From Polyangia bacterium (GTDB lineage Bacteria > Myxococcota_A > Polyangia > Nannocystales > Nannocystaceae): a DNA stretch of 64,000 nt. This document shows positions 21,989 to 39,567 of the stretch, piece by piece. The stretch is taken from NCBI GenBank assembly GCA_030430565.1, contig JAUIKS010000023.1, forward strand, positions 1-64,000, read 5' to 3'. The notes beneath the pieces are model-generated. The model was not told the origin of the DNA. It saw only the letters and a list, made by a program, of their open reading frames with translations, and did no database searches. Numbering within the stretch: position 1 is the first letter of the stretch; each line of letters starts with the position of its first letter. The translations under genes and the position numbers were made by a program.

Positions 21989-22051
21989 CACGCTCCTGAT
22001 CGCGGCCCAACGTCATCGACGACTAAGCGTCCGTGGGAGCGACTGCACAAA

Positions 22052-22536: not shown

Positions 22537-22567
22537 ATTGTGTACTCGTCGACGTAGCGTCTGCTGT

Positions 22568-23918: not shown

Positions 23919-26354
23919 TCAGGAGGCCGAAAATTCGATGGCGACCCGCAGGGTGAGGCTCCAGCCGGGCTCGTCGGCGAAGTAGCGCAGCAAGCTCGTG
24001 TACTCCCGGTAGCGGGAGTTGAGCAGGTTGGCACCGAGCAGGCTGGTCCTCACCAGGTAGTCGTCGCTGGGAAACTCGATCCCGACGCCAGCGCCGAGCA
24101 GGAAGTAGGCCGGCGGCGGCGCGGCGAAGTCGGTCTCAGGGTCGTAGCGACGCTGACGATCGACGAAGGTCCCGTTGAGCTCGAGGTAGCCGTCGGACGA
24201 GACCTGGGTATCAGGCCACAGCCAGCGCCCGGCGAGGGTGTAGCGATCCGAGGGCACAAAGGTCAGGTGCTCGCCGGTCCCGATCTCCTTGGCGCGGACC
24301 CAGGCGGCGTTGCCCTTGAGCTGGAGCGGCAGCCGGGGCGCGCGTAGATCGAAGTCGAGCTCGGCCCCGCCGAACAGCGCGTCGACAGGGGCGAACACGA
24401 AGACGGGCAGCGGTCCGCGGGCGGTGCACGACAGCGGCGCGCACTGACCCTCCTGCGGCCCCGGGGTGAAGTAGATGTAGTCGTCGATGTAGTTGGCGTA
24501 GCCCGAGACGTCGACGTAGAGCCAGTCGCCGGCGTAGATCAAGCTGGTCGCGCCGCTCCAGGTTCGCTCGATCCCGATGTTTGAGTCGCCGAGGCCGAGG
24601 ATCGGGAACGAGGGCGCCGCGCCGTTCATGAACTGCTCGTCGATGGCGGGAATCCGCGCGGAGGAGTTGAAGTCCACGCGCCAGCTGAAGTCCAGCGCCT
24701 TGGCGAACGGCCTCGTCAGGAGACCGACGGTCGCCGAGGGAGTATGGAATTGCTCGCGGCAGTTGGCGCCGTCGTCGACGCGGGCGCAGCTGCCTTCGTC
24801 GAGGCGGCCGCCGGCGCGCTGACCGAGGAAGTCGAGCTCGGCCAAGCCGGCTCGCCGGTCGAGGCCTTCGTAGCGCCCGCCGAGCTCGAACTCGACGCGC
24901 GGGGCGACGAAGCGCTCGACCGCGAACACCCCGCCGCCGATCTGCGTGTAGTCGGGGATCAAGGTGGTCGCCGCGGTGAAGTTGTTGTCTTGGTGGCGGG
25001 CGCTGACCCCGATGGTCCCGACCAACTCCCAGCCGCGACCGAGCGTCGCGACGGGCTGCTCGTAGCGAAGGTCAGCCGTGTGAGTCGCGAGCGCGAAGGT
25101 CAACTGCGGAGCGGGGGTCTCCACGCGAACGATGTCGAACTCCTCGCGGTCGTTGAATTGGAAGGCGTAGGCCAGGTGCAGCTCGCCGGCGACGCCGAGA
25201 TCAACACGCGAGCGGGCCATCGCCAGGTGGTGCCAGACGGCCTGGTAGGGGCGCTCGATCGTGGACTCGGCCGAGTAGAGATCAGCGTTGACGGGTCTGT
25301 TGAGGTCCAGGCTGAGGGCGAACTCGTCTGGCGTGGAGATCCGTAGGCAGGTGCAGATGCCGGCCTGGGTCCGCAGCAGGCGATAACCGACCTCGAGGTC
25401 GACGCGCTCGCTGAGGTAGCCGAGGCGGGCGCCGACGTTCCAGGTCGAGAACCCGGTGTTGTCGAGCGCGTAGGTGGGGGTCAGCGTCGCGCGGTGACGT
25501 CCGACGTTGCCCTCGACGCGCCACGCGAGGCCCTTGGCTCGACGAGGAGCGTGGTCGAAGCGCGCCGCGAGCCCGCCGCCGAGCGGGTTGGAGCCGCCCA
25601 TGGTGCTGACCTCCCCCGCGATCCCGGGTGTTCGCAGCAGCGGGCGCGGCTCGACGAGGACCACACCACCGATCGCGTCGGGTCCGAAGCGGGTCGTGGC
25701 CGCGCCCTTGATCACCGTGATGCGACCGGCGGCGTAGGGATCGATCTCGGGGGCGTGGTCGAGACCCCACTTCTGCCCCTCGTGACGGATCCCGTCGAAG
25801 ATGATCAGGTTGCGACGCCCGAGCTGGCCGCGGATCACCGGCTTGCCCATGCCGCCGGCGGTGCCGCGAAGGGTGCTGACCCCCGAGACCCCGGAGATGG
25901 CGTCGGACAGCCCAACACCGCGGGTCTTGGCCAGCTCGGCCCCTGCGATCTGTACGCTGGAACCCATGTGCGGGTTGTCGTCTCGGACGACGACGACCCG
26001 CGTGCTCTCGTCGTACTCGACGGGCGCGAGGTTGATCGTGCTCTCGACCGCCGGAGCCGCGAGCTCGATGGTCGCTTCCCGCAGCTCGTGTTCGCGCGCG
26101 CGGACCGTGACCCCTACGGTCCCCGTGCACAGGCCCTCGACCCGAACCTGCCCCTCGTCGTCAGTGCGCGCGTAAACGGTCTCGCCCCCGCGCGGGCGCA
26201 GCTCGATCTGAGCTCCGCGCACGGCCTCGCCGGTGTCGCGGTCGACCACGCTCCCAGACCAGCTGAATCGCTCGCTGCACCCCGAGCTAGACGGCTCCGG
26301 AGATGGAGGCGGCGCCAGCGTCAACAACACGCCGAGCAACGCACAGTTCAGCAT
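23919..26354 (-). CDS. TonB-dependent outer-membrane receptor, candidate zinc receptor
   Basis: The 811-residue protein has an N-terminal signal region and a carboxypeptidase-regulatory-like domain (SVVDRDTGEAVRGAQIELRP). A plug domain follows (SVQIAGAELAKTRGVGLSDA, then GKPVIRGQLGRRNLIIFDGI), then a beta-barrel of roughly 590 residues whose last strand is SLTLRVAIEFSAS. The plug resembles ZnuD-type receptors (DGIRxExQxWGxDHAPEID). The barrel has Cys pairs (GICTCL and CAPLSC). The family imports scarce metals or metal complexes using TonB energy. It is the last gene of an operon with the Zur-like regulator (7-bp gap) and a His-rich lipoprotein, so zinc or a zinc complex is the most likely cargo. 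Confidence 0.88.
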   Translation of the reverse strand: MLNCALLGVLLTLAPPPSPEPSSSGCSERFSWSGSVVDRDTGEAVRGAQIELRPRGGETVYARTDDEGQVRVEGLCTGTVGVTVRAREHELREATIELAAPAVESTINLAPVEYDESTRVVVVRDDNPHMGSSVQIAGAELAKTRGVGLSDAISGVSGVSTLRGTAGGMGKPVIRGQLGRRNLIIFDGIRHEGQKWGLDHAPEIDPYAAGRITVIKGAATTRFGPDAIGGVVLVEPRPLLRTPGIAGEVSTMGGSNPLGGGLAARFDHAPRRAKGLAWRVEGNVGRHRATLTPTYALDNTGFSTWNVGARLGYLSERVDLEVGYRLLRTQAGICTCLRISTPDEFALSLDLNRPVNADLYSAESTIERPYQAVWHHLAMARSRVDLGVAGELHLAYAFQFNDREEFDIVRVETPAPQLTFALATHTADLRYEQPVATLGRGWELVGTIGVSARHQDNNFTAATTLIPDYTQIGGGVFAVERFVAPRVEFELGGRYEGLDRRAGLAELDFLGQRAGGRLDEGSCARVDDGANCREQFHTPSATVGLLTRPFAKALDFSWRVDFNSSARIPAIDEQFMNGAAPSFPILGLGDSNIGIERTWSGATSLIYAGDWLYVDVSGYANYIDDYIYFTPGPQEGQCAPLSCTARGPLPVFVFAPVDALFGGAELDFDLRAPRLPLQLKGNAAWVRAKEIGTGEHLTFVPSDRYTLAGRWLWPDTQVSSDGYLELNGTFVDRQRRYDPETDFAAPPPAYFLLGAGVGIEFPSDDYLVRTSLLGANLLNSRYREYTSLLRYFADEPGWSLTLRVAIEFSAS

Positions 26355-26360
26355 CGGCGC

Positions 26361-26801
26361 TCAGCCGTCGGCGCAGCTGTCACAGACGCCGCGGATCTGG
26401 ATCTCGAACCCGCCGGCCGAGGTCGAGCGCGGCAACCCGCGGCCGCGTTTTACCTTGATCTCGACCTCCGGCAGGCAGCTGACGGTGCCGCAGTCGGTGC
26501 ACATGAAGTGCGGGTGATCGTGCCCGGCAGTCACGCTCTCGAATCGCCAGCGCCGATCGCCGTGATCCTTGCGCTGGACCAGCCCAGCCTCGGCGATGGT
26601 GATGAGGTTGCGGTAGATCGTGGTCGCGTCCCACCCGTGACCGGCGAGCTGACGGGCGAGCTCAGCGTGGGTGATCGGCGCCTCGGCCTGGCGCACGGCG
26701 TCGAGCACGGCCACGCGCGCGGGCGTGATCCTCAGCTTCGCCGCGTGCAGCTCGTCAACGAGCGCCTGACGCCTGGCCATACTGAGGATCCGCCCGGCCA
26801 C
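26361..26801 (-). CDS. zur: Fur-family regulator, likely Zur
   Basis: The 146-residue protein has the Fur winged helix (LRITPARVAVLDAVRQAEAP, recognition helix in DATTIYRNL, wing in RRWRFES). The metal-binding region is HDHPHFMCTDC with Cys101/Cys104, and a C-terminal pair Cys140/Cys143 (CDSC) makes the structural zinc site of Fur, Zur and PerR proteins. Zur is chosen over Fur because the operon encodes a His-rich lipoprotein and a ZnuD-like receptor, and the divergent gene is a COG0523 GTPase. GTG at 26799-26801 has GGAG six bases upstream; ATG at 26778-26780 is an alternative. It likely represses its own operon via the box at 27489-27503. Confidence 0.85.
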   Translation of the reverse strand: MAGRILSMARRQALVDELHAAKLRITPARVAVLDAVRQAEAPITHAELARQLAGHGWDATTIYRNLITIAEAGLVQRKDHGDRRWRFESVTAGHDHPHFMCTDCGTVSCLPEVEIKVKRGRGLPRSTSAGGFEIQIRGVCDSCADG

Positions 26802-26815
26802 CGCGCGCTCCGAAC

Positions 26816-27472
26816 TCAGGGGACGACGTTAAGCTCGAAGCTCACGTCGACGTCAACGTCGCCGGGCAGCGCGCTGCCGTCGGCGAACAGACCGGGCAGA
26901 TCCCCGCGTTTCTGCGGCGCGTCGTTGAGCGGCGGCAGGTGGCGCAGCATCACGCTCAGCTCGGACATCCCCTCGGCGTTGGCGGTGATCGTGTTCCGGA
27001 GGCCAACCGGGAGGTTTTCGCCCACATCGTTAGGGGCGTAGTCCGACTCGACGTCGGCGTAGGCGTGGGTCACCAGCGGCGCGGTTGAACTCGTGGCCGG
27101 GCCGCCGACGCCGTCGCCGTAGATCAACATCAGGTGCTCCTCGGCGAGCTCTTCGATCTCCTCCGTCACGTCTTCAGTCGGAGACTCGAGCTCGTTGAGC
27201 ACCTCGATCGTGAGGGTGTAGGTTGTCCCGAGGGTCAGCTCGATGGGATCCGAGGTCCCGGACATCCCGCCGTCGCCGTCGGGATCGCTGAACACCGCCG
27301 TCACGGGGTCGCCCCCAGCGTCGGGCGTGAAGGTCAGCTCGACCCTCGAGATAATGTGGATGTGGTCGTGGTCGTGGTCGTGATCATCGTCGTGATCGTG
27401 ATCATCGTCGTCACAGCCGAACGCCACCAAACTCAGGACCAGGACGGCCCCCCATATGAACCTCTTACACAT
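26816..27472 (-). CDS. Asp/His-rich metal-binding lipoprotein
   Basis: The 218-residue precursor has a lipoprotein signal (FIWGAVLVLSLVAFGC, Cys20) followed at once by an extraordinary Asp/His run alternating D and H over about 20 residues. A soluble beta-rich domain of about 175 residues follows (VELTFTPDAGGDPVTAVFSD, then HLMLIYGDGVGG). Similar lipoproteins occur beside TonB receptors; I cannot name the domain with certainty. The Asp/His run should bind several zinc ions and could hand metal to the receptor encoded two genes downstream. It is the first gene of the lipoprotein-zur-receptor operon, and a perfect Zur-like palindrome ends the gap 16 bp upstream of its ATG. Confidence 0.82.
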   Translation of the reverse strand: MCKRFIWGAVLVLSLVAFGCDDDDHDHDDDHDHDHDHIHIISRVELTFTPDAGGDPVTAVFSDPDGDGGMSGTSDPIELTLGTTYTLTIEVLNELESPTEDVTEEIEELAEEHLMLIYGDGVGGPATSSTAPLVTHAYADVESDYAPNDVGENLPVGLRNTITANAEGMSELSVMLRHLPPLNDAPQKRGDLPGLFADGSALPGDVDVDVSFELNVVP

Positions 27473-27488
27473 GACCGTTTGTTAATTA

Positions 27489-27503
27489 TGCAACTGAGTT
27501 GCA
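27489..27503. promoter_or_regulatory. Zur-like box, perfect TGCAACTGAGTTGCA
   Basis: A perfect 7-1-7 palindrome, extended to 17 bp by flanking A and T, lies 16 bp upstream of the His-rich lipoprotein ATG (27472). Placement that close to the start would block transcription of the operon that includes the Fur-family gene itself, the usual arrangement for an autoregulated repressor. Confidence 0.75.
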
Positions 27504-27615
27504 TTTGTCAACAGCCGATTGGTGGCGAGAGCAGACCGCGGATCCACCGGACCGCCGCGCGAGCGCGCAAGCCGCCAAGCGGGTGGCCAATTGAACATGT
27601 GTAAAATTGATGAAA

Positions 27616-27630
27616 TGCAACTCTGTTGCA
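27616..27630. promoter_or_regulatory. Zur-like box, TGCAACTCTGTTGCA
   Basis: TGCAAC, TCT, GTTGCA forms an inverted repeat with perfect 6-bp arms, 137 bp upstream of the COG0523 GTPase ATG and 112 bp from the neighbouring box. It probably covers the promoter of the GTPase-flavoprotein operon. The 295-bp interval 27473-27767 contains no gene. Confidence 0.7.
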
Positions 27631-27767
27631 AGTGGAGAGCGCGGGTGATAGTCAGACAGCGCGACGCTCCAGCGTTCGCGCTGCGATCGCTTGGTGAGCG
27701 CGCCGGGCTTTGACAGCGGCTATCTGCCACGGGGCCGTCGACACCATTCGATAGACGAGTACAGCTC

Positions 27768-29003
27768 ATGAACCCAACACACCTTCACTCGGACAAGCGC
27801 CTCCCTGTAACCGTGCTGTCGGGCTTCCTCGGCGCCGGCAAGACCACGCTGCTCAATCAGATCCTCAACAACCGCGAGGGCCGACGAGTCGCCGTGATCG
27901 TCAACGACATGAGCGAGGTCAACATCGACGCGGCGCTCGTCGAGCGCGGGGGCGCCGAGCTCTCGCGGACCGACGAGAAGCTGGTCGAGATGTCGAACGG
28001 CTGCATCTGCTGCACGCTCCGCGACGACCTGCTCGCGGAGGTCTCGCGCCTGGCCCGGGAGGGTCGCTTCGACTACCTGCTCATCGAGTCAACCGGGATC
28101 TCGGAGCCTGTACCGGTAGCGCAGACCTTCACGTTTCAAGACGAAGACGGGCAGAGCTTGAGCCAGGTCGCGCGTCTCGACACGATGGTCACCGTCGTCG
28201 ACACCGCGAGCTTCTTGAGGGACTACAACGCGGCCGAGGCGCTCAAGGATCGCGGCGAGTCTCTGGGGGAGGATGACCACCGCACGGTCACGAACTTGCT
28301 CATCGACCAGGTCGAGTTCGCGGACGTGATCGTGCTCAACAAGATCGATCTGGTGAGCCAAGAGCAACTTCTCGAGATGCGCGGGGTTATTCACGCGCTC
28401 AACCCCGGCGCGAAGGTCATCACCGCGACCCGCGGCGACGTGCCGCTCGAGCGCGTTCTCGACACGGGGCTGTTCGACTACGAGAAGGCGGCGAACTCGG
28501 CGGGGTGGATTCGCGAGCTGCAAGGCGAGCACACGCCCGAGACCGAGACGTACGGGATCTCGAGCTTCACCTACCGCACGTCCCACCCCTTCGACGCCGA
28601 GAAGCTCTGGGCGTTCTTTCACGATCCGAACAACTGGCGCGGAGTGCTTCGGTCGAAGGGCTTCTTCTGGATCGCGGCGGACCACCGCGTGGCCTATGAA
28701 TGGGCGCAGGCGGGGCGCGTCAGCAGCTTGAACGCGCTCGGGACGTGGTGGGCGGCCGTGCCTCGAGAGCATTGGCCCCATCCCGAGGGGCATCGCCCGG
28801 ACGAGCAGCCCGACTGGCACCCCCGCTTCGGTGACCGTGCCCAGCAGATCGTGTTTATCGGGCAAGAGCTGAACGAGGCCGAGCTACGCGCTCGCCTGGA
28901 CGCGTGCTTGCTCGACAAGCGCCTCGCCGCCGCCGCGAGCCGCGCTTGGTCGAAGCTCCCGAATCCATTTCCTTCGATGCCGACCGATGAGGACGCTGCG
29001 TAG
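27768..29003 (+). CDS. COG0523 (CobW/ZigA-like) GTPase, zinc chaperone
   Basis: The 411-residue protein has the G3E-family P-loop GFLGAGKTT (residues 19-27), the metal-binding CxCC in GCICC (Cys79, Cys81, Cys82), the switch region ESTGISEP, the base-specificity motif NKID (191-194) and a C-terminal CobW_C domain with several Trp and His residues. COG0523 proteins under Zur control (ZigA, ZagA, YciC) deliver zinc to client enzymes during starvation, using GTP. A Zur-like box lies upstream and the divergent operon encodes the regulator. The gene is followed after 34 bp by the second flavoprotein, making a likely two-gene operon. Confidence 0.9.
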
Positions 29004-29037
29004 TCCGGCGACGCGGTCGTGAACAACGCCGGCGCGT

Positions 29038-30255
29038 ATGGACAAAGACTGGCTGATCGTCGGCGGCGGCATCCACGGCGTGCACATCGCCGCTCGCCTC
29101 ATCGCGGAGGCCGGCGTGGCGCCGGACCGGCTGCTTATCGTGGACCCCGCCGAGCGGCTGCTCGAGCGCTGGAGGGTGTGCGCCGCGGTGACGGGGATGA
29201 GCTTTCTTCGCTCCCCGACCGTTCACCACCTCGATCTGAGCCCGTGGTCGCTGCGGCGCTTCGCCGACAACGTTGATCAACCGAAGTCAGAGTTATACGC
29301 GCCCCCGTATGATCGGCCGTCGCTCGCGCTGTTCAACGCGCACTGCGAGTGGGTCATCGAGCGCTTAGGGCTCGGCGAGCGGCACGACCGCGGGCGCGTG
29401 ACGGCGTGCGACGTCAGCCACGCCGGCGTTCATGTCCGCGTCGCTGACGGCCGCGAGCTGTTCGCGCGACACGTCGTGTTGGCCATCGGCGCGAGCGAGC
29501 AGCCGTCGTGGCCACGATGGGCGCCGAGGGACGAGCCCCGCGTTCAGCATGTGTTCGCGCCGGGCTTTGACGGCTGGCCGTCGACGCGCGAGCAGGTGGC
29601 GGTCGTCGGCGGCGGTATCTCGGCGGGCCTCGTCGCGCTCCGGCTCGCGCGGGAGGGTCACCGGGTGCACCTCGTCTCTCGTCACGCGCTTCGCGAGCAC
29701 CAGTTCGATAGCGATCCGGGGTGGCTAGGACCGCTACACATGACAGGGTTCAGCCAGGAGCGGGACTACGATCTTCGCCGCGCGATGATCGTCCGCGCGC
29801 GGCATCGAGGATCCGTTCCGCCAGATGTTCGAGCCCCCCTCCGCCGGGCCTTCGACCACGGACACATCCGCTGGCATCGGGCCCAGGTTCACGAGGTCGT
29901 CGAGCGACGAGGGTCCGCGCGCCTGCGCCTGGACAACGACGTCCTCGAAGTCGAGCGCGTACTCCTTGCGACCGGCTTTATCACCGCGCGCCCGGGGGGC
30001 GCGATGATCGACGAGCTCGTCGCCTCAGCCTCGCTGCCGTGCGCTCGCTGCGGGTTTCCGATCGTCGACTCGGCGCTGCGGTGGCACCCCAGGATTCACG
30101 TGACCGGTCCTCTCGCCGAGCTCGAGCTAGGTCCGTCATCGCGCAACATCGCAGGGGCTCGCAGCGCCGGCGATCGCCTCATCAACTCACTTCGCACGCA
30201 GTCGATCTGGAGCAGCCTGCGACCGTCACGCTGGTCTCGTTCGGTGAGCACGTAG
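29038..30255 (+). CDS. FAD/NAD(P)-binding flavoprotein, monooxygenase-like (paralogue 2)
   Basis: The 405-residue protein begins MDKDWLIVGGGIHGVHIAAR, a Rossmann FAD motif. It has FLRSPTVHHLDLSPW near residue 58, VLAIGAS near residue 144, a second dinucleotide site (VAVVGGGISAGLVAL) near residue 190 and LLATGF near residue 310. The motif order and the shared RSPxxHHLD make it a paralogue of the 22568-23710 protein. It sits 34 bp behind the zinc GTPase gene and so is probably co-transcribed from the 27616 box. One hypothesis is that it is a client of the GTPase or makes a metal-binding product. The substrate is unknown. Confidence 0.82.
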   Translation: MDKDWLIVGGGIHGVHIAARLIAEAGVAPDRLLIVDPAERLLERWRVCAAVTGMSFLRSPTVHHLDLSPWSLRRFADNVDQPKSELYAPPYDRPSLALFNAHCEWVIERLGLGERHDRGRVTACDVSHAGVHVRVADGRELFARHVVLAIGASEQPSWPRWAPRDEPRVQHVFAPGFDGWPSTREQVAVVGGGISAGLVALRLAREGHRVHLVSRHALREHQFDSDPGWLGPLHMTGFSQERDYDLRRAMIVRARHRGSVPPDVRAPLRRAFDHGHIRWHRAQVHEVVERRGSARLRLDNDVLEVERVLLATGFITARPGGAMIDELVASASLPCARCGFPIVDSALRWHPRIHVTGPLAELELGPSSRNIAGARSAGDRLINSLRTQSIWSSLRPSRWSRSVST

Positions 30256-30262
30256 ATCAACA

Positions 30263-30991
30263 TCAACGTGGTTTTTGAAAGCTGAACATGTTCCGGTCCA
30301 GGTCCTGCGCAGACGCCTCTAGCCCAGCAGCGGCCGCGGCTCTCGAGACCAGCGCTGGTCCTACGACGGCCCACTGGGTGCTGGCCTCCCGGCGCTCTAG
30401 CTCGACTCCGTCCGCGTCATGAATCGTCCAGCGCAGCGTCCATTTCGCCAGATCTTCGGAGGTGATCGAGGCAGCTCCAGCGGTGCGGTAGATCCGGTCG
30501 CCAACGCGTGACTCGCCGAAGTCGGTCCACGGGATCTCGACGGGCTCGAACGGGGGCTGCAGCCCGAGAACGAGCTGCCCGCCAGGCGCCAGGCGCTGGC
30601 CCGCGAATCGCCAGAACCCTTCGAACTCAGCTGGATCGAAGTGTCCGAGCGCGTTGAGCACCACGATCCCGCCTAGCCGCTCGGGCAGCTGATCGCCGAC
30701 CTGGTGCAGCGTCCCCGGCAAGATCGTGACCCGCTTCCGCAGCGCCTCGTTGCCCGCGACCGTCGTCATCAACCCGACCCGCATGTAGATTGAGGGCTCG
30801 ACCGCGTACAGAGCGCCGCTGGTCATGTCTGCCAGTGTTGTCAGCGCAGTGCCGATCCCAGCGGCCACCTCGACGACGGCGCCGTCGAAGGGCGCGTTGA
30901 CGACCGAGCGGAGGGCGGCGAGCTGTCCTGGCAGGCTGGGCAGACTGATCGCCGCGTAGATGTCGGCGTTGGTGGCGTAGTAGTCGGTCAT
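30263..30991 (-). CDS. Class I SAM-dependent methyltransferase
   Basis: The 242-residue protein has motif I as VVEVAAGIGTALTTL (residues 38-52), the acidic residue in LYAVEPS, VVLNALGHFD as motif IV and LAPGGQLVLGLQPP as motif V/VI. It is convergent with the flavoprotein gene, 8 bp between ends. No Zur-like box was found in the 226-bp gap upstream (30992-31217), so membership of the zinc block is by location only. The substrate is unknown. Confidence 0.8.
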   Translation of the reverse strand: MTDYYATNADIYAAISLPSLPGQLAALRSVVNAPFDGAVVEVAAGIGTALTTLADMTSGALYAVEPSIYMRVGLMTTVAGNEALRKRVTILPGTLHQVGDQLPERLGGIVVLNALGHFDPAEFEGFWRFAGQRLAPGGQLVLGLQPPFEPVEIPWTDFGESRVGDRIYRTAGAASITSEDLAKWTLRWTIHDADGVELERREASTQWAVVGPALVSRAAAAAGLEASAQDLDRNMFSFQKPR

Positions 30992-31217
30992 GATGTGCGT
31001 GCGGGGGCTCGGTCATCCACGGCCTGACCATCCTCGTCGGTCACTGACTAGCAGCGGGCGTGGACTTTCGCCACAGGAGGCGGAGTATCTGACTGTCCTC
31101 AGCGCCAGCTCGTGTCAGCGGTCGTTCATTTCGACAGCTGTTCGATCGTTCAACTGGCGCCGCGACGACGGTCTCGTGTTGGCGGACGAGGACGGACATG
31201 ATGAGCGTCGAGCGTCG

Positions 31218-31760
31218 CTACGGGAGCGCGTCGATGATCGTGACGCAGCGCTGATCCTCGTCTTCCCAGGCCGCGCCGCTGATCTCGACGATCAGGCAGA
31301 CATCGCGCCCGACGACATCTTCGGGTCCGTCGATGTCGAAGACCACGCGATCGCCGAGGCGAAACCACCCCTCGTCAGCGGGCAGAACGCCGCCCTCAGT
31401 GAGCTGTGAGCTGGTGACGAAGCTCAACTCATCGCCGCTCTCCGCATCAATCGCGTAGTAGTCGAGCCGCAGACCCTCCGACTCGACGCCCGCGCCACGA
31501 ACGCTTACGTCGACGTGCCAACCGCCTTGGGGGCCCGCGACGAGCTCGATTGGGTCGCCCTCGGCGAGGGCCCGCCAGCGAGTCAGCCCCGTCCCTAGGC
31601 CGAGGGACGCCTCCATCAACTGAGCGTCCGTCGCGGCAGGCGAGTGAGTCGTGGAGGTCGAGGTCGACATCACGTCGTCACCGGGTTCGCAGGCGGCTAG
31701 CGCGAGCAGCAGCGGGATGGTTCTATGGGCGCGAACGCAGATAGAGGGTCCGCTTGACAT
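31218..31760 (-). CDS. Lipoprotein of unknown function
   Basis: The 180-residue precursor has a short lipoprotein signal (TIPLLLALAAC, about residue 24), a Ser/Thr-rich linker and a beta-rich domain of about 130 residues (GWHVDVSVRGAGVESEGLRL, then VVFDIDGPEDVVGRDVCLIV) with two cysteines that could pair. It may be a small Ig-like domain; no family is recognised. ATG at 31758-31760 was chosen because the signal sequence begins there. The divergent lipoprotein gene starts 33 bp away and a Zur-like box lies between, which suggests co-regulation. Confidence 0.7.
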   Translation of the reverse strand: MSSGPSICVRAHRTIPLLLALAACEPGDDVMSTSTSTTHSPAATDAQLMEASLGLGTGLTRWRALAEGDPIELVAGPQGGWHVDVSVRGAGVESEGLRLDYYAIDAESGDELSFVTSSQLTEGGVLPADEGWFRLGDRVVFDIDGPEDVVGRDVCLIVEISGAAWEDEDQRCVTIIDALP

Positions 31761-31793
31761 GACGCTGAGAGTAGTAGAAGAACCGCACCGTTC

Positions 31794-32765
31794 ATGCAAC
31801 ACAATTGCACAAACGCGACCGGTCTTGGACTCGCAACTCTTCTCGCGTGCAGCGCCATCCTCGGCTGCGGCGACGAAGCGAACAGCGGCGACGTGACCGG
31901 TACGTCCGACGCGACCACGACGGAGGATGAACACGGGAGCACCGACAGTGAGGAGAGCGTGGGCGAGAGCGAGGCGCCGGACGCTCCAGCCCCAGTCTCG
32001 CCCCACGGGCGCCTCGTCGTCGACGAGGTCTATTTCACCGGGAGCCCGCCGTTCGGAGGGGCTGAGCACTACTTCTCGGATCAGTTCATCGCCATCTACA
32101 ACGCCAGCGACGAGCGGGTCGCCGCCGGAGGGCTGCTCGTGGGCGATGTCTTCGGTGTCGCCGGCGAGATCAACCCCGGGGACGCGCCGCACGGGCTCGC
32201 CGACGATCTCGACCACGTTTATATGCAGAACCTGTGGCGAATCCCGGGCGCGCCCGACGACGTGATCATCGAGCCAGGTGAGCGTCTCGTGATCGCGCAG
32301 GACGGGACCAACCACAACCCGTTCTCGACCGTCGACCTCAGCGGCGCGGACTTCGAAACCTTCGTCGCGGAGAGTGACAAGGACGACGACTACCCCACGG
32401 TCGAGAACCTCGAGCTGCTGCACTACAACGCGGGCTTCGATTGGTTGATCTCGGTCTTCGGAGCCAGCGTCGTGATCGCCTCGCTCGAGGACTCGAGCGG
32501 TGTGGAAGAGTACGAGCACGAGGGATGGACGCTCGTCCGACTCCCCGTGGCGAGCGTGGTCGACGGCGTCGACATCGTGATGGACGCCGAGAGCGACACG
32601 TTCAAGCGGCTCCCGTCGACCGTCGATCGCGGCTTCACCTTCGCGTCAGGGACCTACACGGGCGAGGCCGCGCTCCGTCGTCGGAGTGAAGGACGACCCG
32701 TCGACACGGACGACTCGAGCGCCGACTTTGAATTAACGAGCGAACCCAACCCGTGGCGCTTGTGA
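31794..32765 (+). CDS. DUF4876-like lipoprotein (lamin-tail-like domain)
   Basis: The 323-residue precursor has a hydrophobic segment ending in a lipobox (LLACSAILGC, about residue 26), a Ser/Glu-rich linker, and a domain beginning RLVVDEVYFTGSPPFGGAEH, then FIAIYNASDERVAAGGLLVG. This resembles DUF4876/lamin-tail-domain lipoproteins known mainly from Bacteroidetes, where they occur near TonB-dependent receptors. The N-terminus lacks the usual Lys/Arg, and the start codon overlaps the box, so the true start is uncertain; no better in-frame ATG or GTG precedes the lipobox. A surface lipoprotein of the zinc block is inferred. Confidence 0.7.
   Translation: MQHNCTNATGLGLATLLACSAILGCGDEANSGDVTGTSDATTTEDEHGSTDSEESVGESEAPDAPAPVSPHGRLVVDEVYFTGSPPFGGAEHYFSDQFIAIYNASDERVAAGGLLVGDVFGVAGEINPGDAPHGLADDLDHVYMQNLWRIPGAPDDVIIEPGERLVIAQDGTNHNPFSTVDLSGADFETFVAESDKDDDYPTVENLELLHYNAGFDWLISVFGASVVIASLEDSSGVEEYEHEGWTLVRLPVASVVDGVDIVMDAESDTFKRLPSTVDRGFTFASGTYTGEAALRRRSEGRPVDTDDSSADFELTSEPNPWRL
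31795..31809. promoter_or_regulatory. Zur-like box, TGCAACACAATTGCA, overlapping a start codon
   Basis: The 15-mer lies between two divergent lipoprotein genes, 34 bp upstream of the minus-strand ATG (31760). On the plus strand it begins on the second base of the ATG at 31794, so a bound regulator would sit on the first codons of that gene. It differs from the perfect site at three central or near-central positions and keeps the TGCAA/TTGCA arms. Confidence 0.55.
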
Positions 32766-32826
32766 CCGCGACGAACGAGCGCCTCCGCTGACCGCGCGTG
32801 GCGCCTCCCCGTAAACTCAGGCAGAT

Positions 32827-34467
32827 ATGTCGGAGCTTCGTTTCAAGGTTGGCGCTGCCGTCATGTGCAATATGGGGTCAAGCGGCTGGAAGCTCGGGAG
32901 GGTCATCGCGCTGCGCTACCGCGAGGATCACTGGCCAGCCGAGCTGGAGGCGCCCTATCAGGTGGCGCTCGAGTCTGACCACACGCTCATCTATGTCCCG
33001 GAGGACGACGCTCGCTACTGCCGGGAGCCTACCCGCGAGGAGCTGAGAATCGCCCGCCGTTTGGACGCCCTCGCCCCGCTCCCGCCGGGTCCGGAGCGGG
33101 CGGAGCCCCACCCCGAGCTGCTCGGCACGGGTGCGCAGCTCGGCTGCGCCGACGGCACGGCGCGACTCGGCAGTCCAGACTACCGCGACGGTCGCTGCCA
33201 CGGCTGCGACTGCTGCCCTCGCAGCTGGTCGAGCGCCGAACTCTACAGCGAGCACTACCGCTGCGCGACGCGCAACGGGCTCACGGTGACGCGGCGCGCG
33301 TTCGACCTCGGCACATTCCGCGTCGGGGACTCGGTCCACCACCCCGCGGGCGAAGACCTGCCGGACGGGGGCTTCATGCAGTGCCCCACGCTGGTGAGGC
33401 TCCCGCCGGGGGTCCGCTTCTCCGACGACGGCGCGCTCTCCGGCGAGGTGCGCTTCGACCCGCACCGCGACGCGACATACAGGGTCGAGTTTGTCGCCGT
33501 GAGCACGGTTGCGTGGGACGACGCCGCGATGGGGATTGTCCGTCTGGCGATCACGTTCGTCGTGGAGGGCAACGAGCCGCCAAGTCGATTCGACAAGGGC
33601 GCCTTCAGGCGCGCTCAGCAGCGGGCCCGCGCCGCGGCCAACCGCGTGCTTGGTGACCTCAGCAGCACGTGGGAACGGTGGGAGCGGCAGGAGCTAGGCA
33701 ACCGCGCCACGTGCGATCGGATGTGCGCTGATCTTCGCCGGCTGCGGGAGCTGCTCGAGCTGCACCCCCGGCTCGACGGCGGCAGGTGGTGGGCCTGGCT
33801 CGGCGGCTTTCATATGAACGTGCACAAGCTCCTCGAGAACACGCTCTTCGAATGCGAGCTCTACCTCGGCCACGCGCTCACGTTCGGGGACGCCGAGGTT
33901 CGGGGTCTGGCGGAGCAGAACCTCAAGGGCTGCTATCAGAAGCGCCTGCTCGAGGCGGCGCGGTTCATGTGGATCGATGGTGTCGAGCGGATGATGCGGG
34001 GCGAGTGGGCCGCGGCGGCGGAGACGCTGCGCCTCGCCGGCGCCAATATGGATGGGTGGGGATGGGCGGTGAACTATGGCGACATCTGGATCAGCGAGTC
34101 AGCCGCGCGACTTGTGCACGGTGCAGAGCTCGCGGCGCGTGGCGGGGCGGAGAACAACGACGGGGCGCGGTGGGTGACCGAGGCGGCGCGGCTTCTCGGC
34201 CGGGGCGTAGCGAGAGCCGACGAGGCGCGCGCTTTTGGCCCCCAGGGACACCCGTGGGCTTTCGAAATTGACGCAGCCCTCGCCGCGTACCGCAGCCTCC
34301 AGGACAACGGCGCCGACGCGTCTGACTGGCTCGAGGCCTTCAAACTACGGACCGTTTATTGGTGTGCGCAGGTGCTCGGCGGAGCGGCCCCCTTCCCGCC
34401 CAAGCCGAGACCTCGGCTGGAGGATGCTGCCGCTCTGGCGCGGCGCCTACCAGAGCACAACGACTGA
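32827..34467 (+). CDS. Large hypothetical protein with eukaryote-like N-terminal domain
   Basis: The 546-residue protein has no signal peptide. Residues 5-60 (VGAAVMCNMGSSGWKLGRVI, then PYQVALESDHTLIYVPEDD) match a short beta-domain I associate with repeat proteins of algae and protists, pattern VGxxVxCxxGxxGWxxGxV...YRE..WP..PYQVxL. A Cys cluster CHGCDCCPRSW (about residues 127-137) may bind metal. Residues 150-250 look like a putative Ig-type domain (LPPGVRFSDDGALSGEVRFD), and the rest is helical with conserved Trp. The function is unknown. It stands alone, after the zinc block and before a repeat-rich gap. Confidence 0.75.
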   Translation: MSELRFKVGAAVMCNMGSSGWKLGRVIALRYREDHWPAELEAPYQVALESDHTLIYVPEDDARYCREPTREELRIARRLDALAPLPPGPERAEPHPELLGTGAQLGCADGTARLGSPDYRDGRCHGCDCCPRSWSSAELYSEHYRCATRNGLTVTRRAFDLGTFRVGDSVHHPAGEDLPDGGFMQCPTLVRLPPGVRFSDDGALSGEVRFDPHRDATYRVEFVAVSTVAWDDAAMGIVRLAITFVVEGNEPPSRFDKGAFRRAQQRARAAANRVLGDLSSTWERWERQELGNRATCDRMCADLRRLRELLELHPRLDGGRWWAWLGGFHMNVHKLLENTLFECELYLGHALTFGDAEVRGLAEQNLKGCYQKRLLEAARFMWIDGVERMMRGEWAAAAETLRLAGANMDGWGWAVNYGDIWISESAARLVHGAELAARGGAENNDGARWVTEAARLLGRGVARADEARAFGPQGHPWAFEIDAALAAYRSLQDNGADASDWLEAFKLRTVYWCAQVLGGAAPFPPKPRPRLEDAAALARRLPEHND

Positions 34468-35056
34468 AGAGGCGCGGGCAGCCCCCCGCCGCCGCTCACC
34501 GAAGCCCAGTCCTGGATCCGCGCCGGGTCGCAGGCTCCAGGACCAAGCTGGCGACATCACCTCTGCGCCACGCGGCGGCTCGTCCTCCGTCAAGTCGTTA
34601 TGCCGAGCCACCGGGCCGCTGCTGGCACGAGAGCGACCGACCTCGATTGCCCGATTCGAGCTCGCGCTTGAGGCTTGACGATGTCTCCAGCGCTTGCGGC
34701 GGGCGCCGCTCAGCGTGTGTCATCTGCTTGCGGCAAAAGTATGGTGTTTTTGTGTCATATGTTTGCGGGGCCTGGCGAATTATTCGTCCCGTGCTCATCA
34801 AATACATTGTTTAATGTTTTCGCCCTTCGTGTTTTGTGTCATACGCTTGCAGGCGCGAAAATGAAAACGGTGTATTCGTCGTCCGTTGCCGGCGTAGCTC
34901 AAATGCGCGGTTTTTCTGTTTGCGGCAAACAGAAGAAACTTGCGCTCGAACTTCGCCTCCCTCACGCTGGCCTGAGTAGGACCGCGAACGAGCGCTGCTT
35001 CGCCGATACATGTGCGGAGTTAGCGAACTCGGTCGCGCGGCCGGATCGAGGTTCGA
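34468..35056. other. Gene-free stretch of 589 bp with short repeats
   Basis: No convincing gene was found; open frames here lack ribosome sites and read mostly basic low-complexity sequence. The 34700-34940 part is AT-richer than its surroundings and carries the repeats listed separately. It lies between an ordinary chromosomal gene and the integrase-bearing element and may be one edge of that element. Confidence 0.45.
34716..34932. repeat. Dispersed repeats TGTGTCATAYGCTTGCGG and a perfect palindrome
   Basis: TGTGTCATCTGCTTGCGG (34716-34733), TGTGTCATATGTTTGCGG (34751-34768) and TGTGTCATACGCTTGCAG (34835-34852) are three direct copies of one 18-mer with two or three differences each. A related TTTGCGGCAAA core at 34916-34932 sits in a perfect 17-bp palindrome, CTGTTTGC-G-GCAAACAG. 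The first copy is followed by GGCAAAAG, which echoes the same core. Regulatory sites, recombination-directionality sites or REP-like debris are all possible. Confidence 0.55.
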
Positions 35057-35992
35057 ATGGATGTTGAAGTCGCGCAATGTCTCTTGCGTAGGGTCTCGTC
35101 TGCGTTGATCCGCTTCGGGACCCCACCCACCGAGCCTGCTCCGAAGCTCACGTCCTGGGAGGAATTCCTGCGACAGCCAACCGCGGCCGAGCGCGCCGCC
35201 GCGGACGCTCGCGAGCGTCAGACTCCCGCGCCCGACGTTCGAACAACCCCCAGACCGAGACGAGCTGGTGGCAGCCGGCGCCGGCGACGAGCCCAAGGCC
35301 CAACGCCACCGCCACGCGCTAAGCCCCGCGCGCCCCAATCACCTCGAGCGGCCAAGCCGGACGATCCCTCAAACGCGACGAGCCTCGCGCGAACCTACGA
35401 CATCACGGTAGCGGGCAACTCGTCCGAACGCATCAAGCACGCATCAGCGCCCCGGCACGTCACCGACTCGGCTATCGAGCGCCCGGAGAGACCCACGCCT
35501 CGGCATCCATCAGTGACACCGAGCGGGCCTGAAGAAACCGTGAATGACGAGTTGACGACGATTCGCCAGCTCCTCGAGCAGCTCGTTCAGTCGCAGCTGC
35601 GCGTCGAGTCCCGGCTCGAGGCGCTCGAGCGTGACGCGAGCGCCCCTGCCGCCCAAGAAGATCAGAGTGAGGCTATCGAGGATGGAGAAGCGGAGCCGCT
35701 TGCCTATCCGCCTTCCGAGCGAGAGCGAGCTGTGGGTACGGACGGGGACTCGACCGAGGCGAAGGGCGAGCGCCTCCGCGAGCAGGTCCACCAACTCCAG
35801 GCATCGCTGCTCGCCGCGTCGCGGCTGCTCAGCATCCTGAGCGCTCGCGTCGATGGGCTCGAACGACGAGGGCAGCGGACCGCGCGACGGCCTCGTCGAT
35901 GTCGCTCGAGACCTCTATCGGGGACGAGCGTCACGCACCCGAGCGAGGAGCGTGATCCAACGAGAGCGCAGGCGCGGGGACCCGCCCCGTGA
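35057..35992 (+). CDS. Hypothetical protein with coiled coil, in mobile element
   Basis: The 311-residue frame begins MDVEVAQCLLRRVSSALIRF, followed by a long Arg/Pro-rich disordered stretch (residues 50-165) and a strong heptad pattern at residues 165-200 (LLEQLVQSQLRVESRLEALE). A second heptad region follows at about 235-270 (LREQVHQLQASLLAASRLLS). The tail is basic. I recognise no family; coiled-coil accessory proteins are common cargo of integrated elements. It converges on the integrase gene, and its stop codon lies in the stem-loop at 35982-36003. The first codons have no strong ribosome site, so the start is uncertain. Confidence 0.5.
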   Translation: MDVEVAQCLLRRVSSALIRFGTPPTEPAPKLTSWEEFLRQPTAAERAAADARERQTPAPDVRTTPRPRRAGGSRRRRRAQGPTPPPRAKPRAPQSPRAAKPDDPSNATSLARTYDITVAGNSSERIKHASAPRHVTDSAIERPERPTPRHPSVTPSGPEETVNDELTTIRQLLEQLVQSQLRVESRLEALERDASAPAAQEDQSEAIEDGEAEPLAYPPSERERAVGTDGDSTEAKGERLREQVHQLQASLLAASRLLSILSARVDGLERRGQRTARRPRRCRSRPLSGTSVTHPSEERDPTRAQARGPAP

Positions 35993-36003
35993 GAGCGGGG
36001 CGG
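35982..36003. terminator. Stem-loop between convergent genes
   Basis: CCGCCCCG, a 6-base loop and CGGGGCGG give an 8-bp perfect GC stem between the coiled-coil gene and the integrase gene. The stop codon of the former is in the loop region. No T-run follows on either strand within ten bases, so the efficiency is doubtful. Confidence 0.4.
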
Positions 36004-36016
36004 CCTTCGTGCTCAG

Positions 36017-37270
36017 CTACTTCTGCTTCTTCTTCTTCGCTCTGCGAGTGCGCGGCTTCTTCCGCGAGTTCGCCGAGATCGCCGACCCCATCAGCTCGAC
36101 GCCAGCGGCGAGCGCCTTGTCGCTGATATGCGCGTAGCGAGCGGTCGTGCTCGGCTTACGGTGCCCCAGGATCTTGCCGACGACCGCGAGCGGTACGCCA
36201 GCGTTGATCGCGTCGCTCGCGGCTGAGTGGCGAAGATCGTGTAGCCGGACGCGTTCAAAGCCAGGGAGTCGGTCACGGATACGGATCCACGTCGCGGTCA
36301 ATGTCGACGGCCTGATCGCCGCCCCATGTTTGTTGGGGACTATGTACGCGCTGCGAGCCCCCCGAGCCTTGGCGCGCTTCTGACACGCGCGGAGAATGTC
36401 GAGCGCGGCGGCCGAGAGCGGGACCGTCTTCTTCCCGGTCTTGCTGTCGGGGAGACGAAGACAACGGTGGCGCCAGTCAACCATCGGCCAGGTCAAGTCG
36501 CAGACCTCACCACGACGCATGCCGGTGTGCGCGAGGATCCGAATCGCGGCGACGGACTCCCACCGCAGCGCCCCGTGCTCGTTCCGGTTCAGCGTGAGCC
36601 CGCGCTCGAGAGCCTCCTCGAGGCGGACGCGCTCCTCGGGCGAAAGAAAGCGCTCGCGTGACTTCCCGGGGAACTTCTTCACATGGCGCGTCGGCGGCGT
36701 GAACGTGGCGTCCACGACATCCCACTCCTTCGCGCGGCCGTAGATGCTGCTCAGGAGGAGCAGCGCGGCGTTCGCCTCGTACGGCGTCTCGCGCATCTGA
36801 CCGTGCCAGCGGGTGACGTCGGCCCTGGTGACCTCGTCGAGGCGGTGCTCGCCGAAGCGCGGGAGGATCGCGGTGCGCAGCAGTTGACGATATTTCTCGC
36901 GTGAGTATCGCTTGAGCCGCACGTCCACGTGCTCCTGGAGGAAGCGGTTCGCGAAGTCTTCGAGTCTGGGCAGGTTGGACGCGCGACGCGGCGACGTGAC
37001 GCGGCGACGGGACTCCGTCGGCGCGCCGACTGCCAGGAGCCGAGACTGGGCAAAGGCTCTCGCGTCCGCGAACTCGACGTCGGTGACCAGGCCGATGCGC
37101 TCCCGGACGTCTTTGCCTTCACCTGTCCGGTAGCGCACGTAGTACGCCTTCTTCCCGCTCGGCAGCACGCGGAGGATGAAGCCCTTGAGGGTGCCGCAGG
37201 TGAGTTCGTACCTCGCCTTGCGCGGCTTCGCTCGCTCGACTGCTCTCTTGGTCAGGGTCGGCATCGTCAT
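36017..37270 (-). CDS. Tyrosine recombinase / phage-type integrase
   Basis: The 417-residue protein has an N-terminal arm-binding DUF4102-like domain (LTCGTLKGFILRVLPSGKKA), a SAM-like core-binding domain (residues 100-200) and a complete catalytic domain. Arg252 lies in HTGMRRGEV, the hairpin Lys near residue 278-281 in DSKTGKK, His344 and Arg347 in HDLRHSA, His370 in LGHRKPST and the nucleophile Tyr379 in ARYAH. All active-site residues are present, so it should be functional. The C-terminus is strongly basic (KKPRTRRAKKKKQK). It would integrate and excise the element described here; no excisionase was recognised. Confidence 0.92.
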   Translation of the reverse strand: MTMPTLTKRAVERAKPRKARYELTCGTLKGFILRVLPSGKKAYYVRYRTGEGKDVRERIGLVTDVEFADARAFAQSRLLAVGAPTESRRRVTSPRRASNLPRLEDFANRFLQEHVDVRLKRYSREKYRQLLRTAILPRFGEHRLDEVTRADVTRWHGQMRETPYEANAALLLLSSIYGRAKEWDVVDATFTPPTRHVKKFPGKSRERFLSPEERVRLEEALERGLTLNRNEHGALRWESVAAIRILAHTGMRRGEVCDLTWPMVDWRHRCLRLPDSKTGKKTVPLSAAALDILRACQKRAKARGARSAYIVPNKHGAAIRPSTLTATWIRIRDRLPGFERVRLHDLRHSAASDAINAGVPLAVVGKILGHRKPSTTARYAHISDKALAAGVELMGSAISANSRKKPRTRRAKKKKQK

Positions 37271-37347
37271 GCGCTCAGAATCGAACCATCACCCGAACCA
37301 AAACAAGCCCTAGAACCATGTCGAGTTTCGATTGCAACTTCAAGAAT

Positions 37348-37899
37348 TTAGGTGGCTAGGGCGGTTCTGCGCACAACTCTATAATCGCCCAGCATGACGT
37401 TCTCTGGCTTGAAGTCACGGTGCACCAAGCCGGCGGCGTGCGCGGCCGCGAGCCCTCGGGCTGCCTCGAGGTACATGTCGATGATCTCGCGCCAGCCTCG
37501 CGCGCGGGCGCGCTGCCAGGTCCGCAGCGTCACGCCGTCGACGTACTCCATCGCCACGAACACGCGCCCCTCGTGGATGCCGACGTCGTGCACGCCGACG
37601 ACGTTGGGGTGCGCGAGGCGGGCGAGCGCCTGGGCCTCCCGCAGCAGCCGCATCCGCCCCTCGTGCCGGCGCTCGCGCGAGACGTGACCGAGCGGCTCGT
37701 TGAGCACCTTGATCGCGACCTTGCGATCGAGCTCTGGGTCGTGGGCGGCGAACACGGTGCCCATCCCGCCGGCGCCGAGCTCCTCGAGCACGACGTAGCG
37801 CCCGAGCAGCGACCCCCGCGCGAGCGCGCTGGGCCGCTGCGGCCGACCGCCGGCGACCAGCGTGGGCTCCTCAGACCACGAGCGCGACGTCTCCCCCAT
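37348..37899 (-). pseudogene. Ser/Thr protein kinase gene cut in the catalytic loop
   Basis: The 183-residue remnant has a normal Pkn-type N-lobe: [20 protein letters not shown] (Gly loop), VAIKVL (Lys) and the alpha-C region. It reaches the catalytic loop [13 protein letters not shown] near residue 160. There it switches to [11 protein letters not shown] and stops, losing the DFG motif, activation loop and whole C-lobe, so it cannot be an active kinase. The break lies about 110 bp from the start of the integrase gene. The natural explanation is disruption by the integrated element. The Asp, Lys and Gly-loop residues retained show the gene was recently functional. Confidence 0.8.
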
Positions 37900-38067: not shown

Positions 38068-39567
38068 CTACGCGCGGGCCTTGAGCGCGGCGAGCAGCAG
38101 CGGGCGCACGACCTTGGGGTTCGCCTGCCCGCGCGTGGCCTTCATGACCTGCCCGACGAAGAAGCCGAGCAGCTTGGTCTTGCCGCCGAGGTACTGCGCG
38201 ACCTGCTTCTCGCTGCGGTCGAGGATGCCCTCGATCAGCGCGCTCAGCTCGCCGGTGTCGCTGACCTGGCGGTAGCCGTCACGCTCGACGATCTCGCCCG
38301 GCGCGCGCCGCTCGGCGTAGCTCTTGCCGAGCACCTCCTTGCCGGCGCGGGCCGAGATCACGCCGCCCTCGACGAGCGCGACCAGCTCCGCGCTCCAGGC
38401 CGGCTCGACCGGCGCGCGCCCGGGCTCGAGGCGGACGTCGCCGCGCTCGTCCTCGTTGACGCGCCGCAGCAGCTCGCCGGTGATCCAGTTGCAGAGCTTC
38501 TTGGCGGTCACGAGGTCTTCGCCCTCGCGCTGACCATGTTCTTTGGCGCAGGTGAGCGCGGCGTCGAAGTAGCGCGCGAGCCCGGCGTCGGCGGTCAGCA
38601 CGCCCGCGTCGTAGGCCGAGAGCCCGAGCCCGCGGTAGCGGGCGCGCCGCGCCGCCGGCAGCTCGGGCATGTCCTCTTGAACACGCTCGATGAGCTCGGG
38701 CTCGATCACGAGCGGCGGCATGTCGGGCTCGGGGAAGTAGCGGTAGTCGGCCGCCGCCTCCTTGAGCCGCATGATCCGGGTCTCGTCGCGGGCGGTGTCG
38801 TAGCTCAGGGTGCACTGCTGGACCGGGAGCCCGCGCGCGAGCAGGTCGCGCTGGCGCCGGATCTCGGCCCGGATCGCAAGCTCGAGGAACTTGAAGGAGT
38901 TGAGGTTCTTGATCTCGCAGCGCGTGCCGAGCGGGCCGCCGGCGGGGCCGATGGAGACGTTGGCGTCGCAGCGCAGGCTGCCCTGCTCCATGTTGGCGTC
39001 GGAGACGCCGAGGTAGCGGACGATCGCGCGCAGCTCCTTCATGTAGCGCGCGGCCTCGGCGGCCGAGCGGATGTCGGGCTCGCTGACGATCTCGACCAGC
39101 GGCGCGCCGGCGCGGTTGTAGTCGACGAGGCTGTCGCGCTCGCCGTGGAGGTGCGTGTTCTTGCCGGCGTCCTCCTCCATGTGGATCCGGATCAGGCGCA
39201 CGTAGGTGGTGTCGCCCTCGGCGCCCTTGGGCCCCGGGACCTCGAGGCCGCCGCCGCGCGCGTAGGGGTGATCGTTCTGCGTGATCTGATAGCCCTTGGG
39301 CAGGTCGGGGTAGAAGTAGTGCTTGCGCGCCCAGCGGCTGACGCGCTGAATCTCGCAGCGCGCGGCGAGGGCGACGCGCACGGCGAATTCGACGGCCCTG
39401 GCGTTCGGGACAGGCAGCGTGCCGGGCAGCCCGAGCGTGTAGGCGTCGACCTGCGTGTTGGGCTCGGCGCCGAAGTGGAACGGGCAGCCCGTGAACATCT
39501 TGCTCGCGGTGTCGAGCTGACAGTGCACCTCGAGGCCGATGACCGGCTGGTAGTCGCGGACGCTCAC
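38068..39567 (-). CDS. gatB: Aspartyl/glutamyl-tRNA amidotransferase subunit B
   Basis: The 499-residue protein begins VIGLEVHCQLDTASKMFTGC, the conserved GatB start. It contains HYFYPDLPKGYQITQ, EPDIRSAAEA, RCDANVSI, the EIKNLNSFKFLE motif and YRYFPEPDMPPLVI. It ends in the GatB/YqeY tRNA-binding domain (GFFVGQVMKATRGQANPKVV). With GatA and GatC it converts Asp-tRNA(Asn) and/or Glu-tRNA(Gln) to the amidated forms. The start is GTG at 39565-39567, overlapping the gatA stop (GTGA); longer frames into gatA are not used. Confidence 0.96.
   Translation of the reverse strand: MSVRDYQPVIGLEVHCQLDTASKMFTGCPFHFGAEPNTQVDAYTLGLPGTLPVPNARAVEFAVRVALAARCEIQRVSRWARKHYFYPDLPKGYQITQNDHPYARGGGLEVPGPKGAEGDTTYVRLIRIHMEEDAGKNTHLHGERDSLVDYNRAGAPLVEIVSEPDIRSAAEAARYMKELRAIVRYLGVSDANMEQGSLRCDANVSIGPAGGPLGTRCEIKNLNSFKFLELAIRAEIRRQRDLLARGLPVQQCTLSYDTARDETRIMRLKEAAADYRYFPEPDMPPLVIEPELIERVQEDMPELPAARRARYRGLGLSAYDAGVLTADAGLARYFDAALTCAKEHGQREGEDLVTAKKLCNWITGELLRRVNEDERGDVRLEPGRAPVEPAWSAELVALVEGGVISARAGKEVLGKSYAERRAPGEIVERDGYRQVSDTGELSALIEGILDRSEKQVAQYLGGKTKLLGFFVGQVMKATRGQANPKVVRPLLLAALKARA

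Follow-up and report, generated by a model that had tools for sequence, protein, structure and literature searches.

A tyrosine integrase beside a kinase gene cut just past its catalytic loop: one end of a presumed integrative element in a genome with many split kinases

The stretch of 64,000 nucleotides analysed here (the window) very probably holds one end of an integrative element, whose tyrosine integrase split a protein kinase gene just past the catalytic loop, as part of a system that uses scattered landing sites. By the mechanism we propose, the integrase would recombine the element into a short core lying within the codons that directly follow the catalytic loop of the kinase (cut after VMLGD), so that the kinase gene would be split and its 5' half left beside the integrase start codon. 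The reaction would be attP by attB recombination over a core of some 15-20 bp, and the window integrase itself presumably made the window insertion. The conserved codons of multi-copy families would serve as scattered landing sites, there being many copies, each probably dispensable. Elsewhere in the genome, further kinases are split at the motifs HRDFKP and DQFSF with direct repeats of 9-31 bp, several of them beside integrases of a second family, and GVVYAAY is probably a third motif at which kinases split. Insertion accounts for the cuts and repeats, for the frames restored on joining and for the recurrence.

The window locus

The features of the window are collected in Table 1, together with three elements from other loci of the genome. 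The kinase remnant occupies a frame of 183 aa (37348-37899, minus strand) that matches Pkinase PF00069 over positions 1-132 of 263 with E = 1.2e-22 and then reaches a stop. Recognisable kinase sequence ends in GGCGAT, with its final base at 37384, and the remnant frame is foreign thereafter, the presumed element end putting a short foreign tail and a stop on it. The original prediction had the kinase frame end and a recombinase begin about 77 bp on, and this is what is measured: PF00069 stops halfway, the integrase is intact, and its start codon comes 77 bp after the remnant frame ends and 113 bp after the last recognisable kinase codon. Where the same prediction put the insertion in the HRDxKPxN codons, conserved catalytic-loop codons as the target stand, but the position shifts, since the window kinase is cut about 7 codons downstream of HRDFKP.

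Table 1. Features of the window and of three DQFSF elements elsewhere in the genome
Locus	Feature	Coordinates	Strand	Remarks
Window	Presumed element body and/or neighbouring DNA	1..36016	.	GC 0.62-0.73
Window	Tyrosine recombinase (integrase), 417 aa, intact frame	36017..37270	-	PF00589, PF13356, PF14659
Window	Presumed element end, kinase-integrase interval, with the run CCGCCCTAGCCACCTAAATTCTTGAAGTT	37271..37383	-	Resembles segments upstream of homologous integrases (by eye)
Window	Junction sequence TCATGCTGGGCGAT, the last recognisable kinase codons and part of the presumed att site	37384..37397	-	Locus L130 (genome G010) is cut at the same codon
Window	5' half of a Ser/Thr protein kinase gene, N-terminus to VMLGD	37384..37899	-	PF00069 positions 1-132/263; kinase profile 4-151
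Window	Gene presumed to be gatB, flanking the kinase	38068..39558	-	GC higher from here rightwards
L074	DQFSF element	4636-9557		Low GC, defence-type genes
L082	DQFSF element	10426-17868		Low GC, defence-type genes
L109	DQFSF element	9816-18499		Low GC, defence-type genes

The integrase runs in the same direction as the kinase and scores E = 6.6e-30 and 104.6 bits against PF00589, for which the curated cut-off is 27.1, with arm-binding and SAM-like domains in addition. It contains GMRRGE, HDLRH, GHR and YAH in that order, which we take to be its catalytic motifs. By the kilobase, GC is 0.70-0.79 right of 38 kb versus 0.62-0.73 left of 36 kb. Twenty proteins from the left 33 kb were scanned with Pfam, giving RND efflux and ABC transporters, a TonB receptor, cobW, oxidoreductases, methyltransferases and unknowns; phage and conjugation genes were absent from these 20 (1-33 kb), and two further proteins near the integrase have no Pfam match.

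The other half of the kinase was predicted to be missing from the window, and a kinase profile search of the window agrees, finding no 3' half, its sole other match being a separate kinase at 42910-43707 on the plus strand. Checks proposed at the outset, to find the 3' half with a repeat of the junction and an intact kinase in relatives, came back empty: the junction 14-mer has a single occurrence and no partner in the genome's own assembly, and none of 21 relatives' loci has a kinase match beside gatB, so no intact syntenic kinase was found. A repeat search for a right end within the window gave only matches scoring 13-14, none of them convincing, and the pair of attL and attR direct repeats that marks an integrative element is absent from this locus, where one end is visible. 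With no right end found, we class the locus as no more than a single end of a presumed element. The window takes up the first 64 kb of its contig, which is 176 kb long and part of an 11.6 Mb draft of 68 contigs (87.7% complete, 5.3% contamination), and because the window begins at the contig start, the element may run off the contig end. Searching GTDB contigs with the window integrase gave one distant partial match.

Window-type integrases and their targets

A set of window-type integrases was drawn up from the 27 matches at E <= 1e-60, which come from 7 of the 29 genomes of the order that were searched. The window integrase has three paralogs at 57-59% identity. At E <= 1e-75, with at most 5 candidates per genome scored, 6 of the 317 genomes searched in the class have the type, and these 6 belong to a single family. 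The integrases found at HRDFKP and DQFSF are of a different family, most of them having 26-30% identity or less to the window integrase.

At two of these loci a cut kinase again lies beside the integrase. At L130, in another genus (G010), a kinase is cut between HRDFKPDNVIVGD and YGSVCRTA, at the same codon as in the window, beside an integrase 57% identical to the window's. On contig C52 of the genome itself (L089/L011), a kinase 3' half starting at IMVGDDG lies next to an integrase of 57% identity, here in the opposite orientation. A rival reading takes the window kinase for a decayed gene that a deletion truncated, with the integrase merely adjoining. The window locus leaves room for deletion because it offers one end only, no 3' half and a junction 14-mer that occurs once, in an assembly that is 87.7% complete; against it stand the cut at this very codon next to a homologous integrase of another genus, and the similar element end. 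We give deletion a very low probability.

Kinases are a minority among the neighbours of the window-type integrases. Of the 27 loci, 23 could be assigned a target, namely kinases at 3, DUF4215 repeats at 6, FG-GAP proteins at 9, histidine kinases at 2, another Cys-rich repeat at 2 and a tRNA at 1. The DUF4215 labels rest on Pfam in 5 cases (one below the curated cut-off) and on eye in 1, and the FG-GAP labels on Pfam in 6 and on eye in 3; the 2 histidine kinases have sensor domains by Pfam and an H-box by eye, the 2 Cys-rich cases were called by eye with no Pfam match, and the tRNA by eye only. In two of the four loci without a label the match begins inside the integrase. The weaker labels are L138 (DUF4215) and L011 (Pkinase), both below their Pfam curated cut-offs, with L011 passing PF07714; L142, where FG-GAP amounts to a few residues plus the core; and L143 and L145, the Cys-rich pair. 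At L113, ARAGORN finds two tRNAs, none of them at the integrase, where a partial tRNA is seen by eye.

The proposed check for the same integrase family in other kinase genes gave L130 and C52, but most assigned targets of the window-type integrases are not kinases. Integrases of this family at unrelated sites had been named beforehand as grounds for giving up the insertion reading, and in part they exist, at DUF4215, FG-GAP, the H-box and a tRNA (by eye); yet at 22 of the 27 the site consists of conserved codons from a multi-copy family (14 with a Pfam family match, 2 histidine kinases, 6 by eye only). On a tree of the 27 integrases, target labels need 10 changes versus 16.3 when shuffled, and 0 of 200 shuffles are as low, near-copies contributing to this figure. 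A purely kinase-specific integrase family was considered and rejected, as homologs lie in other multi-copy motifs.

Complete elements of the window type add what the window locus does not offer. On contig C27 of the genome itself, a histidine kinase is cut in the H-box after FLANMSH by a complete element of 14.4 kb, after which the gene resumes; the integrase is 41% identical to the window's. The element is bounded by 19-bp direct repeats with one mismatch, and the target is continuous when the two sides are joined, as expected of an integrative element. On C32 of G010 there is a perfect 20-bp repeat with copies 35.4 kb apart, with a right flank that does not continue the target gene, and on C32 of G017 the 20-bp core is found again 33.7 kb away together with a second element end. 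In the stretches searched, no convincing right end was found for L130, L131, L132, L134, L136, L139, L145, L098 or L088.

Further split kinases in the genome

The original prediction pointed to the kinase family as a supply of many potential targets, and the genome bears this out with further split kinases at several motifs. With the remnant as query, there are at least 152 kinase matches in the genome, the best 150 of 370 candidates having been scored. Among the matches listed, a hand count gives 17 with an open frame under 400 aa, comprising 1 at a contig edge, 3 complete small kinases and 13 truncated kinases. All 13 of the truncated kinases among the matches listed end at a conserved motif, 10 at HRDFKP, 2 at DQFSF and 1, the window kinase, at VMLGD, and for this reason the position of the breaks is beyond chance. 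A census of kinase halves, taken over the regions around truncated kinases and most integrases and with some fragments counted at two sites, gives 5' and 3' halves of 10 and 11 at HRDFKP, 5 and 6 at DQFSF and 3 and 1 at GVVYAAY, with VMLGD represented by the window and C52.

For twelve insertions, spread over ten kinase genes, a single contig contains both ends, and when the sides are joined at a direct repeat of 9-31 bp the kinase frame is continuous in 12 of 12. Direct repeats and restored frames, the marks of an integrative element, are thus present at both HRDFKP and DQFSF. Insertion as originally proposed gains from these kinase halves, cut at HRDFKP, DQFSF and GVVYAAY and with direct repeats wherever both ends are available. 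The core variants agree between the paired ends of split kinases. That agreement speaks against the breaks being assembly chimeras formed at a conserved motif, as do repeats that at 9-31 bp are short for misassembly and the occurrence in other genomes, one of which is a single contig, of homologous integrases next to cut motif genes. A draft in 68 contigs with several contig ends near integrases is what gives chimeras any footing, and we regard them as barely credible.

The same material bears on whether specificity is simply relaxed, with a very short core sufficing and abundant families hit for their supply of copies, without adaptation to coding motifs. One clade of 9 integrases has a kinase, DUF4215 and another Cys-rich repeat as targets, insertions occur in both orientations, and some repeats are just 9-10 bp, all of which relaxed specificity would accommodate. 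It would not lead one to expect ten kinases cut at the same few bases, target labels clustered on the integrase tree, or the 19-20 bp repeats of the window-type elements with two ends. We consider relaxed specificity unlikely, though deserving some weight.

Some kinases are split more than once. Those on C59 and C4 carry paired insertions at HRDFKP as well as at DQFSF, and the C63 kinase is cut at the same two motifs, the second cut lacking a partner. A kinase on C17 (L129, L079, L123), in pieces scattered across about 39 kb, is apparently cut at GVVYAAY and HRDFKP and offers a candidate GVVYAAY pairing. A kinase break is abutted by 11 of the 52 PF00589 hits examined (58 in all, fragments included).

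The DQFSF elements have conserved ends, the best pairs scoring 91-181 versus shuffled maxima of 19-24 and weaker pairs 21-57. One element is inverted, its left end being the reverse complement of another's right end (score 93 versus a shuffled maximum of 28). The three annotated elements (Table 1) have GC of 0.54-0.59 versus 0.65-0.68 in their surroundings, and each carries an integrase and defence-type genes; the cargo includes PtuA (Septu), a pentapeptide protein with a NACHT match just under the cut-off, and a DpdB-like protein with a helicase.

Of the paired HRDFKP islands, 6 of 8 have no PF00589 match. Four small islands among these 6 carry host-like genes (FeoB and RCC1 repeats; RND efflux; LysR, pirin, isochorismatase and lipoxygenase) or, on C63, a protein without a Pfam match. 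The island on C55 retains the C-terminal end of an integrase gene at the island end. Some islands seem to have lost the integrase and kept the cargo, leaving fossil split kinases. An integron-like cassette system had been entertained for the integrase-less islands and was rejected as the main reading, given the integrase gene end on C55. Contig C5 (L072, L125) has a 57 kb island in a kinase, with a 31-bp direct repeat and three integrase hits inside.

A programmed switch, by which elements would excise conditionally and restore kinase function as a form of regulated gene integrity, would account for the precise direct repeats and for the frames restored in 12 of 12 insertions on joining the sequences; in keeping with it, the 5' halves that were read run into foreign codons or a stop, and no replacement sequence was seen. 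The islands lacking a PF00589 match, one of them with an integrase remnant only, are hard to reconcile with such a switch, and the kinases cut at two motifs likewise suggest fossils. To our mind a switch is very improbable.

Beyond this genome, and among 77 loci of which some are its own, G018 has a kinase 3' half starting at FKPDNVL beside such an integrase, cut off where the contig stops. In G001 a weak kinase match lies near an integrase, with no break at a motif. Outside the bacterial family, none of 21 loci (one per genome, from 21 of 23 genomes) has a kinase match beside second-family integrases.

Some minor observations concern the integrases generally. Tail-to-tail pairs of tyrosine recombinase genes, within about 150 bp of each other, occur at L117 (1465-3553), L118 (9000-11985) and L085 (9311-11632). 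Contigs C7, C12, C27, C35, C37, C38, C44, C52 and C63 end a few kb from an integrase hit, and repeats in elements at contig ends may break the assembly. At L084 (near 10657), L101, L129 and L100, integrases were seen by eye to abut a WD40 repeat or proteins ending RLYC(F/V)EQ, which are possibly further multi-copy targets.

Relation to known systems

Defence islands with an integrase are a known kind of system, and the three annotated DQFSF elements are alike in their low GC, integrase and defence-type genes; the difference is that here they have landed in a motif of the kinase domain. Inteins and homing introns also prefer conserved protein codons, but are spliced out of the product, whereas the present elements have a site-specific recombinase and leave the gene broken. 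Insertion in a prophage late gene and satellite genes, by which HE-PICI and PICI are recognised, were not found: the targets are kinases and repeats, and the Pfam-scanned cargo has no phage genes.

The system reported in PMC10111431 has, like the present elements, a tyrosine integrase adjoining the att site, a clade that turns repeatedly to a single class of protein-coding gene, subclades that correspond to sites, and a target that is disrupted without a replacement sequence. Compared with that system, the present targets differ in being chromosomal and in belonging to highly multi-copy paralogous or repeat families, with several motifs in use within one gene family; a gene here can be hit more than once, and a helper phage was not seen. 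Integrative elements that enter single-copy genes (tRNA genes, icd) usually restore the target (discussed in PMC10111431). Elements of that kind share with ours short-core recombination in a conserved gene and direct repeats at the ends; unlike them, the present elements leave the gene split, and the target family has more than 150 matches in the genome.

What the present case would bring is a large paralogous family whose conserved codons offer integrases scattered landing sites, with several motifs hit and single genes split repeatedly. If true, such use would help explain how cargo and defence islands gather in giant kinase-rich genomes. The loci also provide a panel of integrases with distinct natural targets in coding sequence.

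Codon usage at the kinase cores

In 54 intact kinase domains of the genome, the codons for F, P and Q are unusual at the HRDFKP and DQFSF cores. The comparison is with other positions in the same kinases and with the kinases of seven related genomes, summed. F is TTT in 21/35 at the site versus 60/425 elsewhere, and in 2/49 at the site in relatives; P is CCA or CCT in 18/49 versus 89/774 elsewhere and 3/58 in relatives; Q is CAA in 15/28 versus 63/429 elsewhere and 2/30 in relatives. In this discovery set, the expected core TTCAAGCC[CG]GA is found in 1/24 kinases with an acidic next codon, and the same codons in 5/11 without one.

Thresholds were then fixed beforehand for 60 fresh kinases, 56 of which were usable, one being a duplicate and three lacking a frame. 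With the acidic codon, the HRDFKP core is kept in 1/24 versus 0.71 expected (p = 1e-11, which like the other codon p-values is optimistic, as kinase paralogs share descent), and without it in 10/21 (Fisher 0.0011). GACCAG at DQFSF is found in 7/36 versus 0.66 expected (the discovery set had 3/20), and all three preset thresholds were passed. Combining the sets, 2/48 intact kinases keep the usual codons at the HRDFKP core versus about 71% expected and 37/42 in relatives, and kinases whose next residue breaks the core keep them in 15/32. Eleven different altered versions of the core occur, and some elements lie at cores matching altered versions. The window kinase has the variant CCA at its HRDFKP core; its cut falls about seven codons later, next to an integrase that belongs to the other family.

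A scan over 218 codon positions, with 82 own versus 60 relatives' kinases, puts HRD+3 and DQF+1 at the top, with uncorrected p of 2.6e-7 and 5.1e-6. Occupied sites, though few, have the usual HRDFKP letters in 3/9 versus 2/48 for intact sites (p = 0.024), one of the ten occupied sites (C32) being left out because no acidic codon follows its core; at DQFSF, where again few sites are occupied, the usual letters are found in 4/5 versus 10/56 (p = 0.008).

The D codon shift at DQFSF is not specific to this lineage, relatives having GACCAG in 13/38, while the Q codon CAA is lineage-specific, with 20/36 in the fresh set versus 2/38 in relatives. GAT at the D of DQF and at GVVYAAY was at one stage taken as lineage-specific evidence and was dropped, since it is also found in relatives.

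The shift suggests a pressure against the integration site, perhaps by synonymous escape, and is compatible with selection or survivorship acting against a site where integration works. Footprints of excision are a possible source of the altered cores. A codon-level arms race, in which hosts would recode their own kinases synonymously, with the protein unchanged, and so escape site-specific integration, is by our estimate from sequence an evenly balanced proposition. In the titles and abstract openings surveyed, we recognised no report of integrases targeting kinase motifs or of synonymous escape. The shift offers a case, open to direct test, in which selection against a site-specific recombinase would act at synonymous host positions.

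Two smaller observations concern codons beyond these comparisons. In G008, of the same genus (kinases L320-L324), TTT accounts for 26/35 F codons elsewhere and 0/3 at HRDFKP, the genes being few. At APEQF and FIQAGRG, no broken kinase was seen in the stretches examined; the genome's own kinases have a weaker excess of A/T-ending codons at both motifs relative to relatives, and these are possible further integration sites.
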